The notes under the pieces: model-generated | Database searches by the model: none | What the model saw: the letters and a program-made list of their open reading frames with translations, nothing else | Told to the model about the DNA's origin: nothing | Made by a program: the position numbers and the translations under genes | Source of the DNA: Gammaproteobacteria bacterium | Lineage (GTDB): Bacteria; Pseudomonadota; Gammaproteobacteria; Steroidobacterales; Foliamicaceae | Reading direction: 5' to 3' | DNA: 64,000 nucleotides | Assembly (NCBI GenBank): GCA_009844425.1 | Contig: VYBN01000013.1 | Location: forward strand, 1 to 64,000 | Shown: one piece after another, positions 44,357 through 59,063 of the stretch | Layout: every line of letters starts with the position of its first letter | Position numbering within the stretch: position 1 is the first letter of the stretch

Positions 44357-44629
44357 ATGAGGATCAGGCACAAGGGACTGCGGGTGCTGCACGAACGGGA
44401 CGACGCTGCGCGGCTGCCTGCCGCTCTTGTGCCACGGCTCCGGCGCATCCTGTTTCGCCTGCAAGAAGCGACGTATCCGGGCGGCGCCGATGCGCCAGGT
44501 TTTCGGCTGCATCCCCTTAAGGGTGACCGTGCGGGCCAGTGGAGCGTTCGCGTCTCCAGTAACTGGCGCGTGGTTTTCCGCTTTGAGGACGGTGAGGCCG
44601 TGGATGTGGACCTGATCGACTATCACTGA
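44357..44629 (+). CDS. higB: HigB-family toxin (RelE superfamily)
   Basis: 90 residues of the plasmid-maintenance killer type: GLRVLHERDDAARLP, LHPLKGDRAGQWSVRVSSNWRVVFRF and final VDLIDYH. Toxin-first order is typical of higBA. It is predicted to be a ribosome-dependent mRNA interferase. No ribosome-binding site is obvious, suggesting a leaderless transcript. Confidence 0.88.
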   Translation: MRIRHKGLRVLHERDDAARLPAALVPRLRRILFRLQEATYPGGADAPGFRLHPLKGDRAGQWSVRVSSNWRVVFRFEDGEAVDVDLIDYH

Positions 44630-44648
44630 CCGGAAGGAAGTGCTGACC

Positions 44649-44963
44649 ATGAACAAATTAAAGAATAAGCGCGTCGGACCGATGCGGAACCCGCCACACC
44701 TGGGCGAATTGATCCGCGAGAATATGGACGAGGTGGGTTGGAACGTAACCGAAACCGCGGCGCAGCTTGGCTGTGAGCGCGGAACACTGTCGCGCCTGCT
44801 GAACGGCAAGGCGGGTGTGTCGGCGACCATGGCGCTGGCGTTGGAGGACATCGGCTGGGGCACAGCCGATCACTGGATGCGTATGCAGGCGAGTTACGAG
44901 CTTGCCCAGGCGCGCCGGAGCCGGAGCAAGGCTGAAAGAAGCGCGGACGCAGTGCACGCATGA
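44649..44963 (+). CDS. higA: HigA-family antitoxin (XRE helix-turn-helix)
   Basis: 104 residues with PPHLGELIRENMDE and the HTH segment TAAQLGCERGTLSRLLNGK, followed by a helical dimer part. ATG 44649 is 8 nt after GGAAGGAAG. Neutralises the upstream toxin and probably binds the palindrome at 44331. Confidence 0.88.
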   Translation: MNKLKNKRVGPMRNPPHLGELIRENMDEVGWNVTETAAQLGCERGTLSRLLNGKAGVSATMALALEDIGWGTADHWMRMQASYELAQARRSRSKAERSADAVHA

Positions 44964-45002
44964 CTTCATTCCCGCGCTGAGTAACGACAGCAACGCAAAC
45001 TG

Positions 45003-46756
45003 ATGCGCCTTTCATGGAACGAGGTCCGGGTCCGCGCGGCCACATTCGCCGACGAATGGAGCAGCGCGGTTCGCGAGACAAGCGAAACGCAAAGCTTCTA
45101 CAACGCCTTCTTCCGCGTGTTCGGCGTGGAGCGCCGCTCGGTGGCGCGCTATGAGGAGCATGTAGCGAAACTCGGCAACAGCTCCGGCTTCATCGACCTG
45201 TTCTGGCCCGGCGTCCTGATCGTCGAGCAGAAGAGCGCCGGCCGTGACCTCGGCAAAGCCTACGGCCAGGCCGGCGAGTATTTCGACGCGCTCAAAGAGC
45301 GGGACCGGCCCCGTTACATCCTCGTCAGCGATTTCCAGACCTTCGAGTTGCACGACCTGGACGAGCGCACGGAGGTCCGATTCAGCCTCAAGGACCTTCC
45401 CGCTCACGTGGAGCACTTCGGCTTCATCCTCGGCGTGCAAAAACGCGCCTTCCGCGATCAGGACCCCGCCAACATCAAGGCCGCGGAACTGGCCGGGCGG
45501 CTGCACGACGCCCTTTACGCCGCCAACTACCGGGGCCACGACCTCGAACGCTTCCTGGTGCGCATCATGTTCTGCCTGTTCGCCGACGACACCGGCATCT
45601 TCGAGCCGCGCGACATCTTCCTGGAGTTTATCGAAACCCGCACCAGCGAGGACGGCGCCGACCTGGGCCCGTGGCTGCGGCAAGTGTTCGAGGTCCTGAA
45701 TTCGCCCGAAGACGAGCGCAGCCCGCTCTTGGACGAGGACCTGGCGCGTTTCCCCTATGTCAACGGCGACCTGTTCCGCGAGTACCTGCGCACTCCATCT
45801 TTCAACGCTGCCATGCGCGAAGCCCTGCTGGACGTATGCCGCTTCGACTGGTCGAACATTTCGCCCGCCATATTCGGCGCGCTGTTCCAGTCCGTGATGG
45901 AGCCGGAGCAACGCCGCGCCCAGGGCGCGCACTACACCACGGAGAAGAACATCCTCAAGGTGATCGAACCGCTGTTCATGGACGACCTGCGGGCCGAATT
46001 CGAGCGCCTCAAGTCCCGCAAGGACAGCCGCCGCCGCGCCGATCTTCGACGGTTTCAGGAGAAGCTCGGCCGGCTGCGCTTCTTCGACCCCGCCTGCGGC
46101 TGCGGAAACTTCCTCATCATCGCCTACCGCGAACTGCGGCTATTGGAGATCGAAGTGATCCGCGAACTCCGTACGGCGGCTGCCAGACTTGGGCAGGAGG
46201 AGCTTGACGTCGCCACGCTTTCGCTGATCGATGTGGACCAGTTCTACGGCATCGAGATTGGTGAGTTCCCAGCGCGCATCGCCGAGACCGCGATGTGGAT
46301 GATGGATCACATCATGAACAACCGGCTGAGCCTGGAGTTCGGCCAGACCTATGCGCGCATTCCGCTGGAAACCTCGCCGCACACATGGCATGGACGCGGT
46401 ACATCGGCGGGCGACTGAAAAGCGACTACCAGTATTCCGTGGGCATCAACTACAACACCTTCCCGATGCCGCCCAAAGACTCAGACCTGTCGCGGCTGGA
46501 ATCGTTCGCCCAGGCAGTGCTTGACGCGCGGGCCGCACATCAGGACGCGACACTCGCTAACCTCTACGATCCCGATTTAATGCCGCCGAAACTGCGCAAG
46601 GCGCATCAGGCGCTCGACCGCGCCGTGGACCGCCTCTACCGGCGGGGCGGCTTCGCCTCCGAACGCAAGCGCGTCGAACACCTGTTCGCCCTCTACGAGA
46701 AAATGCGCCCCCCTTTGACCACAAGCGCGAAAGTGAGACTGCGACGAAAGCGATGA
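45003..46756 (+). pseudogene. MmeI-type restriction-modification gene with internal deletion
   Basis: The first 460 residues carry a PD-(D/E)XK nuclease (Asp65, Glu75-x-Lys77 in DLFWPGVLIVEQK), a helical linker, HYTTEKNI and the SAM motif DPACGCGNF near residue 365. The frame breaks after RIPLETSPH (about 46385). From about 46386 another frame gives HMAWTRYIGGRLKSDYQYS through to RVEHLFALYEK, the known C-terminal end of MmeI-like enzymes. The catalytic NPPF-type motif and the target-recognition domain, several hundred residues, are missing. The locus should be inactive for methylation. Confidence 0.82.
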
Positions 46757-46788
46757 GCCGCGAAGAATGGAATTACAACTTAGTGTTC

Positions 46789-46805
46789 GTAAAGCGTCGC
46801 TTTAC
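46789..46805. promoter_or_regulatory. Candidate HigA operator upstream of higBA-2
   Basis: Perfect 17-bp palindrome GTAAAGCGTCGCTTTAC, 31 bp before the toxin start and overlapping a promoter-like stretch (ACTATAC). Mirrors the palindrome at 44331. Confidence 0.55.
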
Positions 46806-46836
46806 ACTATACGCCCACACGCGATAACATTCTGCA

Positions 46837-47127
46837 ATGAAGATCAGGAATGTGGCCCACAAGGGATTGCGACGGCTCGTTCAGAAAGACGATGCCGCCG
46901 GTGTCCCACCTGCCGTTGCAGGAAAGCTCCGGCGCATGGTCTCTTTCCTCCAGGACATGGAGCAGGAGGAAGAGTTGCGATCAGTGCCGGGCTGGAAGGC
47001 GCACAGGCTTACCGAGGATCGCAAGGGCACGTGGAGTCTGGTGGTCACTGCGAACTGGCGAGTCACGTTCCGAATCGATCGTGTGGAGATAGAGATCATC
47101 GACCTCAATTACGAGGATTACCACTGA
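46837..47127 (+). CDS. higB: HigB-family toxin, second copy
   Basis: 96 residues with HKGLRRLVQKDDAAGVP, GWKAHRLTEDRKGTWSLVVT and NWRVTFRI, ending NYEDYH. Diverged from the copy at 44357 but the same family and order. It lies directly after the restriction-modification remnant. Confidence 0.88.
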   Translation: MKIRNVAHKGLRRLVQKDDAAGVPPAVAGKLRRMVSFLQDMEQEEELRSVPGWKAHRLTEDRKGTWSLVVTANWRVTFRIDRVEIEIIDLNYEDYH

Positions 47128-47136
47128 GAGGCAGAT

Positions 47137-47460
47137 ATGGCAACGGCAATTGGGATTCGCATGAAGAATCCCGCCCATCCCGGCGGATTCGTCAAGCATG
47201 AGGTGATTGAGGCGCTCAATCTCACGGTGACGGAGGCAGCCGCCGTGCTTGGCGTCACTCGGGCGGCGCTGTCGGCCGTTCTGAACGAGCGCTCGCGTCT
47301 GTCGCCGGAGATGGCGTTGCGCATCGAGAAAGCGTTCGGCGTGTCGATGGACACCCTGATGCGGATGCAGAACAGTTACGATATCGTCAGGATCCGGAAT
47401 CGGGCGGGCGAGATCAAGGTTGCATCATTCGAGAGTGCGGAACGTTTTTCCGCCGGATAA
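47137..47460 (+). CDS. higA: HigA-family antitoxin, second copy
   Basis: 107 residues with NPAHPGGFVKHEVIE and the HTH TEAAAVLGVTRAALSAVLNERS, then MALRIEKAFGVSMDTLMRMQ. Starts 9 bp after the toxin with GAGAGGCAG upstream. Antitoxin and likely repressor of its own operon. Confidence 0.9.
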   Translation: MATAIGIRMKNPAHPGGFVKHEVIEALNLTVTEAAAVLGVTRAALSAVLNERSRLSPEMALRIEKAFGVSMDTLMRMQNSYDIVRIRNRAGEIKVASFESAERFSAG

Positions 47461-47595: not shown

Positions 47596-47912
47596 TGCCC
47601 GGGGCCGGACTCGAACCGGCACGGGGTTTCCCCCGGGGGATTTTCTTACCCGCTACGGCTTTCGCCGCGGGAGGCGCGTCGCAGCGCGCTCCCTTTGGGG
47701 TCTGGACTTTCCCTCTGCCCTATCGCCTGTCGGCGACGTAGGCCGGAGCCGTCAAGTCTCTACACTTTCCCCGTGAAATCGGGGCTTAGCTCGGGATTGC
47801 CACCACCTTGCGTGCTGAGGTTTCCCCGAATTTGACTCCTGGTGCATCGGACGGTTTCCCGACCGGCGCTCAATATCAAGTCCCCTGCGTATACCCATTT
47901 CGCCACCCGGGC
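47596..47912 (-). tRNA. tRNA-Leu(UAA), split by a group I intron
   Basis: 5' exon 47912-47878 begins GCCCGGGTGGCG and ends GGGGACTT; 3' exon 47644-47596 begins AAAATCCCC. Joined, they give an 84-nt tRNA with a 7-bp acceptor stem (GCCCGGG/CCCGGGC), discriminator A, D arm, anticodon stem GGGGA/TCCCC with loop CTTAAAA, a long variable arm and T arm GCCGG-TTCGAGT-CCGGC. The interruption lies between T34 and A35 of anticodon UAA. CCA is not encoded. Confidence 0.92.
47645..47877 (-). ncRNA. Group I intron (IC3-like) in tRNA-Leu(UAA)
   Basis: 233 nt ending in the expected terminal G (47645). Landmarks on the minus strand include GTCAAATTCGGGGAAACCT, GGCAATCCCGAGCTAAGCC, GTGTAGAGACTTGACGGC and AAAGTCCAG, which match the P, Q, R and S-type core of known tRNA introns such as that of Azoarcus tRNA-Ile. 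A P1 helix can form between exon CTT and intron GAG with U-G at the splice site. Too short to encode a homing endonuclease. Confidence 0.9.
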
Positions 47913-58865: not shown

Positions 58866-58939
58866 TGGAGGCCAGGGCCGGAATTGAACCGGCGTCCACG
58901 GATTTGCAGTCCGCTGCATAGCCACTCTGCCACCTGGCC
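58866..58939 (-). tRNA. tRNA-Cys(GCA)
   Basis: Acceptor GGCCAGG/CCTGGCC, anticodon loop CTGCAAA, T arm GCCGG-TTCAATT-CCGGC, discriminator T and encoded CCA. Confidence 0.95.
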
Positions 58940-58988
58940 CGGCTTTTCGGCAGGCCGCGCCCTGCCGCGCTGATTCCTGCCGGAAAAA

Positions 58989-59063
58989 TGGAGCGGGAAA
59001 CGGGACTTGAACCCGCGACCCCAACCTTGGCAAGGTTGTGCTCTACCACTGAGCTATTCCCGC
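58989..59063 (-). tRNA. tRNA-Gly(GCC)
   Basis: Acceptor GCGGGAA/TTCCCGC, anticodon loop TTGCCAA, T arm GCGGG-TTCAAGT-CCCGT, discriminator T and encoded CCA. It lies upstream of tRNA-Cys and the two are probably one transcript. Confidence 0.95.

Follow-up and report, generated by a model that had tools for sequence, protein, structure and literature searches.

The minus strand of positions 47596-47912 was confirmed to carry a tRNA-Leu(UAA) gene that is interrupted by a 233-nt IC3 group I intron. In our preferred reading, to which we give a probability of about 0.94, this would be a functional gene whose anticodon loop is split by a small intron without an ORF, and its product would be the only tRNA reading UUA; the intron would belong to a settled gammaproteobacterial Leu(UAA) intron lineage that is vertical in the genus and patchy in the order. 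The exons, the borders, the covarying core, the guide-exon pairing, the conservation in the genus and the lack of a second UAA tRNA were read from sequence, and the splicing steps given below come from the known mechanism. The coordinates of the initial annotation were correct, and the strand, which it did not give, is minus. The features are as follows, numbered along the window, by which we mean the whole stretch of 64,000 nucleotides that was analysed.

47878..47912, minus strand: 5' exon of tRNA-Leu(UAA), 35 nt (ARAGORN with introns, and the empty site in intronless relatives)
47645..47877, minus strand: group I intron, 233 nt
47596..47644, minus strand: 3' exon of tRNA-Leu(UAA), 49 nt (ARAGORN with introns)
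47869..47871, minus strand: internal guide GAG, P1 partner of exon CUU 47878-47880, giving a U.G pair where the 5' splice site lies
47848..47865, minus strand: P2 hairpin with GAAA tetraloop (CGGUCGG-GAAA-CCGUCCG), from sequence and fold
47700..47839, minus strand: catalytic core P3-P4-P5-P6-P7-P3'-P8-P7', the stretch covered by model R1
47834..47839, minus strand: P3 5' strand GGAGUC, partner GGCUCC 47745-47750; double changes in 4 of 6 pairs, 100% of cells paired
47825..47830, minus strand: P4 5' strand UUCGGG, partner CCCGAG 47790-47795, from the covariation count and the MFE fold
47769..47784, minus strand: P6 hairpin CCCC/GGGG, from the covariation count
47754..47758, minus strand: P7 5' strand GACUU (guanosine site helix), partner AAGUC 47705-47709 across the pseudoknot; 100% of cells paired
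47717..47743, minus strand: P8 hairpin, inner helix varying in 4 of 4 pairs, 95.9% of cells paired
47645..47699, minus strand: P9 region, two hairpins (one GAAA-looped) and the terminal guanosine at 47645

When introns were disallowed, ARAGORN found no tRNA at 47596-47912, but when they were allowed it returned a tRNA-Leu(taa) whose intron measures 233 nt (gactt^gatattg...gggtaag^aaaat). The 5' exon, which covers tRNA numbering 1-34, ends in ...GGGGACUU, the 3' exon begins with AAAAUCCCCC, and the joined exons were again called as tRNA-Leu(taa) with a perfect tRNA fold. Many relatives in the order have the gene intact without an intron, and in these the query positions 1-35 and 269-317 abut exactly, which places the intron between U34 and A35 and fixes both of its ends independently of ARAGORN. 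The same empty site sets the border at the intron 3' end (GGGUAAG). The identity of the tRNA, the U34/A35 split, the length and the terminal G were all as first proposed. The CCA end was absent from the encoded 3' exon (at window 47596), unlike in the congeners L006 and L008, where it is encoded. The intron is too short to hold a homing endonuclease reading frame, and none was found in its 233 nt. For many of the related loci, the ARAGORN host labels Gln(ctg), Phe, SeC, Ser and Tyr were rejected because anticodon-loop pairing, the U before the intron and the terminal G gave consistent hosts, and the apparent Thr(AGU) introns L103 and L110 were reassigned to Lys(UUU) after U35. The first pass of the host caller demanded a terminal G, so the invariance of this base among called hosts is by construction; some labels of phage-contig hosts were kept unrefined, as ARAGORN gave them.

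The core was analysed in a MAFFT alignment of 13 related introns, in which pairs were counted for the canonical fold including the P3/P7 pseudoknot. All canonical core helices covary, the pseudoknot included: 97.5% of cells were paired and 14 of the 34 pairs had changed on both sides. No shuffled alignment of 500 matched the observed pairing, and when the partners were slid by 1-3 columns, 29-54% of cells were paired; the slid control is the fairer yardstick for percent paired because the tested structure was written in advance from the known IC3 fold. Compensatory core changes were also seen within the genus, and P7 showed a compensatory change of U-A to A-U in L016 and L076. Folding the window intron by free energy, with no relatives added, gave P3, P4, P6 and P8 complete and half of P5. 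Less favourably, when the full precursor is folded to minimum energy, the two exons pair together and also with the ends of the intron; P7 is a helix that folds of this kind cannot show. The strands of P5 are separated by just a hairpin loop (21 nt), there is no P5abc and the core is small, as in IC3 introns, which are without P5(a-d) (PMC11835236). The covariance model R1, built on these introns, scored accepted IC3 tRNA introns at E 1e-17 to 5e-20 (80-90 bits) for cyanobacterial Leu and at E 6e-23 for the Ile(CAU) intron L278. The absence of P5a-d and this homology together bear out the proposed IC3-type core. On the 5' side of P8, CCUACG appears similar to a GAAA tetraloop receptor.

The Rfam search that had been suggested as a check gave a mixed result. 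At the gathering threshold there was no intron match at the locus, but a partial match to Intron_gpI (RF00028) was present below it (30.9 bits on 701 nt with E 5.6e-6, spanning positions 53-154 of the 253 in the model). The gathering score is 50, so that Rfam at its default threshold would miss the intron. This is a practical blind spot, as default tRNA and Rfam searches overlook genes of this kind, and the genome then seems to lack a tRNA for UUA.

If splicing follows the mechanism known for group I introns, P7 would bind an external guanosine, which would attack after U34, the released 5' exon would then attack after the terminal guanosine, and ligation of the exons would yield the sole UUA-reading tRNA. 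R1 matches introns that have splicing relatives: the set includes the Bartonella members L185, L217 and L230, and the tRNA-Arg(CCU) intron of B. bacilliformis splices in vivo and in vitro (PMC7717549).

In total, 46 tRNA genes were read in the genome, with the leucine anticodons CAA, UAG, GAG and CAG and, once, the intron-bearing UAA. No second tRNA-Leu(UAA) was found in this genome, although one could have been missed in an assembly that is 94.4% complete and in 50 contigs. An intact second copy was likewise found in none of the nine genomes of the genus, one of them a single contig, and such a copy would score well above the listed cut in that search. UUA made up 14 of approximately 18,000 codons in 38 window ORFs, which were chosen heuristically by length and GC3, so the codon is in use and a UAA tRNA is required. 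Thus, splicing is very probably needed for reading UUA. The condition set in the initial annotation, that this be the only UAA tRNA-Leu, apparently holds, and splicing is probably essential.

The intron was found in 9 of 9 genomes of the genus, that is, in all 8 besides the genome of the window; seven of the congener copies were full length at 90-98% identity and one was truncated at a contig end. Counting partial and weak matches too, R1 matched 72 of 147 genomes of the order, 70 of 369 of the class and 41 of 398 of the phylum. Twenty of the weaker order matches were fetched, of which 18 were called within tRNA genes and two lay at contig ends; they included Arg(UCU) after U34, Ile2(CAU)-type after U36 and Leu(CAA). 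Among the hosts of all fetched loci, Leu(UAA) after U34 was by far the most frequent, followed by Arg(CCU) after U36, and Lys, Thr, Ser, Met/Ile2 and Arg(UCU) were single or few cases. In each of the sets sampled, Leu(UAA) hosted this type of intron most often, and among the matches listed for named species genomes its introns occurred in alpha-, beta- and gammaproteobacteria, acidobacteria, Bacteroidota and cyanobacteria. A reading of the intron as a rarity in a proteobacterial genome is not supported by these counts: the intron is of a known kind that is common in proteobacteria, and the locus is an ordinary, well-conserved example. Its value lies elsewhere. The sampled genomes of the order hold intronless Leu(UAA) genes together with introns in Leu(UAA), Leu(CAA), Arg(UCU) and Ile2(CAU). 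With this locus as an entry point, close relatives can therefore be compared for intron gain, loss and site change. The patchy presence in the order means that loss, transfer or both have happened.

The window intron is nearest to the other Leu(UAA) introns of gammaproteobacteria and shares a supported clade with them. In a tree of 98 cores its set comprised 40 rows, of which 38 were Leu(UAA) (SH-aLRT 95*); a careful tree search gave a set of 43 rows (98/88*), and a tree with phage rows gave a set of 25 in which no phage occurred (95/95*). These trees were built on 134-138 columns and their bootstrap had not settled, so the deep forks were left unused. Constraining the 38 gammaproteobacterial Leu introns to one clade had no cost, and a single clade of all Leu(UAA) 34/35 introns was rejected (AU p 7e-13). 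The expectation that the locus would be informative on moves between sites and lineages thus holds for the whole family, with which the question can be answered, and not for this locus alone. Core identity to the window intron was 92-96% in congeners.

Two other origins were considered against these trees. Direct descent from the cyanobacterial and plastid tRNA-Leu(UAA) lineage, by transfer of the intron or of the locus, is suggested by the identical tRNA and the same insertion after U34, and the core architecture, without P5abc, is also shared. A joint clade of gammaproteobacterial and cyanobacterial Leu introns was not formally rejected (AU p 0.089), but the tree with this clade was 37.8 log units worse, core identity was just 60-65%, and the cyanobacterial introns formed their own long-branch clade (100*; 100/100*) apart from that of the window, so we consider this descent improbable. 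A site switch from an Azoarcus-type tRNA-Ile(CAU) intron, for which the Pseudoduganella violaceinigra intron L278 (205 nt; also L076) served as a stand-in, is unlikely too. This type shares the IC3 core, its identity to the window intron (71%) is above that of cyanobacteria, the Ile(CAU) introns lay in the neighbouring set of one tree with weak support (87/72), and the joint clade was not rejected (AU p 0.38). However, Herbaspirillum Arg(CCU) (77%), Lys(UUU) (77%) and Leu(UAA) after U33 (75%) are equally close or closer, a supported split in the 98-core tree separates the Ile introns from the window intron, and Ile(CAU) introns are inserted after U36 of the CAU anticodon, so that the switch demands a guide change from GUG to the GAG of the window. 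The earlier remark that the core looks closer to the Azoarcus Ile intron therefore holds for identity and not for descent, as both joint clades stay unrejected.

The other two alternatives concern the state and the source of the gene itself. The rarity of UUA in this GC-rich genome would agree with an inactive intron in a pseudogene and with UUA being read by another tRNA. We consider this very improbable, because the exons retain a perfect tRNA fold, compensatory changes maintain the core pairs within the genus too, and the searches of the genome and its congeners turned up no further tRNA-Leu(UAA). A recent import of the entire intron-bearing tRNA gene by phage or plasmid would fit the existence of such genes on both kinds of element, and the flank at 44.3-47.5 kb has the style of a mobile region. 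Yet relatives without the intron have tRNA-Gly, tRNA-Cys and tRNA-Leu(UAA) grouped on a single strand, and the window retains this order, with tRNA-Cys and tRNA-Gly on the same strand at 58866-59063, 11 kb from tRNA-Leu. Two congeners retain it at a spacing of 8-11 kb, and in G003 the distance is about 8 kb. This match in order argues that the intron sits in the native gene and not in an imported extra copy. The intron is carried by the whole genus, and the window clade has no phage row. We therefore regard a recent import as highly unlikely. An origin from phage was rejected, as a 23-nt core signature of the clade had no match in IMG/VR, and so was the insertion of an island at the 3' end of the tRNA, as the window contains no duplicate of that end. 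The stretch 44357-47460 contains an MmeI-like restriction-methylase reading frame (45003-46418), which matches the methylase domain in part only, with a HigBA-like toxin-antitoxin pair on either side, and it looks like a degraded mobile segment adjoining the tRNA 3' end.

Among known systems, a gammaproteobacterial tRNA-Leu(UAA) intron of 231 nt was reportedly described by Vepritskiy, Vitol and Nierzwicki-Bauer in J Bacteriol in 2002; it is reported to be like the 233-nt window intron in tRNA, site and host class, and its length is nearly equal. The alphaproteobacterial tRNA-Arg(CCU) introns (Agrobacterium, Bartonella) share the IC3 core and the tRNA anticodon loop with the window intron, but they are inserted after U36 and use the guide GGG, and their core identity is mostly below 70%, reaching 77% in the Herbaspirillum member. 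Proteobacterial Ile2 introns were also already known (PMC8450103). One side finding concerns a Tatlockia MAG (L271, a Legionellales bin), in which a cyanobacterial-type tRNA-Leu(UAA) intron is nested among cyanobacteria, which means either transfer or misbinning.

The guide follows the exon sequence that precedes the intron. Near their 5' end, introns after CUU had the guide GAG in 131 of 134 cases. Of the 31 introns after CCU, all 31 had GGG there, and GAG was present in 8; the motif has three bases, so these counts are meaningful as a comparison between host classes. Hosts ending in CUU are Leu UAA, Arg UCU, Ser UGA and, after U34, Lys UUU. They need no change of guide, so exchange of introns among them should be easy. 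The tRNA-Leu(CAA) introns L106, L289 and L290 split their host after C34, so that C-G would replace the customary U.G in the pairing of guide and 5' splice site.

Intron-bearing tRNA genes were also found on mobile elements. The plasmid pCTX-M3 (NC_004464.2; L318:2886-3184), and also L320 and L321, contain a complete tRNA-Leu(UAA) interrupted by a group I intron of approximately 220 nt, at a locus where nothing is annotated. This gene is of alphaproteobacterial type, with 95% identity to Enterovirga and a Bradyrhizobiaceae genome, and in the plasmid records opened it lies close to tmrB-like/aac(3)-IId, which points to a possible alphaproteobacterial source of the aac(3)-IId resistance module. 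Matches to the stretch were present in 1280 PLSDB plasmids, and 635 of the 5426 complete E. coli genomes had it as well. It is a living example of an intron-bearing tRNA passing between classes. In IMG/VR, at least 27 viral contig loci had a tRNA-Leu(UAA) intron at the same site (L337, L378, L349, L347, L334, L330 and others). The 112-kb contig L337 is a phage by its rIIA, rIIB and endolysin genes, and the 281-kb viral contig L378 has three tRNA-Leu(UAA) introns in one tRNA array. Gordonia phage Daredevil (NC_048021.1; L317:1154-1465) carries, beside its integrase gene, an unannotated tRNA-Lys(UUU) with a 238-nt group I intron, whose closest relatives are actinobacterial tRNA-Lys introns. A 2014 review described phage group I introns as confined to protein genes (PMC3984707), and the tRNA-Leu(UAA) introns of the phage contigs and the tRNA-Lys intron of Daredevil are exceptions to this rule.

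We tentatively suggest, at somewhat less than even odds, that the IC3 introns of tRNA anticodon loops may be one mobile group. Its members would insert after U33, U34, U35 or U36 of many tRNAs (with the C34 variant in Leu(CAA)), swap hosts through the three-base guide and cross lineages in the tRNA genes of phages and conjugative plasmids, and the window intron would be one settled branch. Among the tRNA-Arg(UCU) hosts, L077 (in G079) has a 418-nt intron, approximately 200 nt above its kin, with the extra sequence in the core region.
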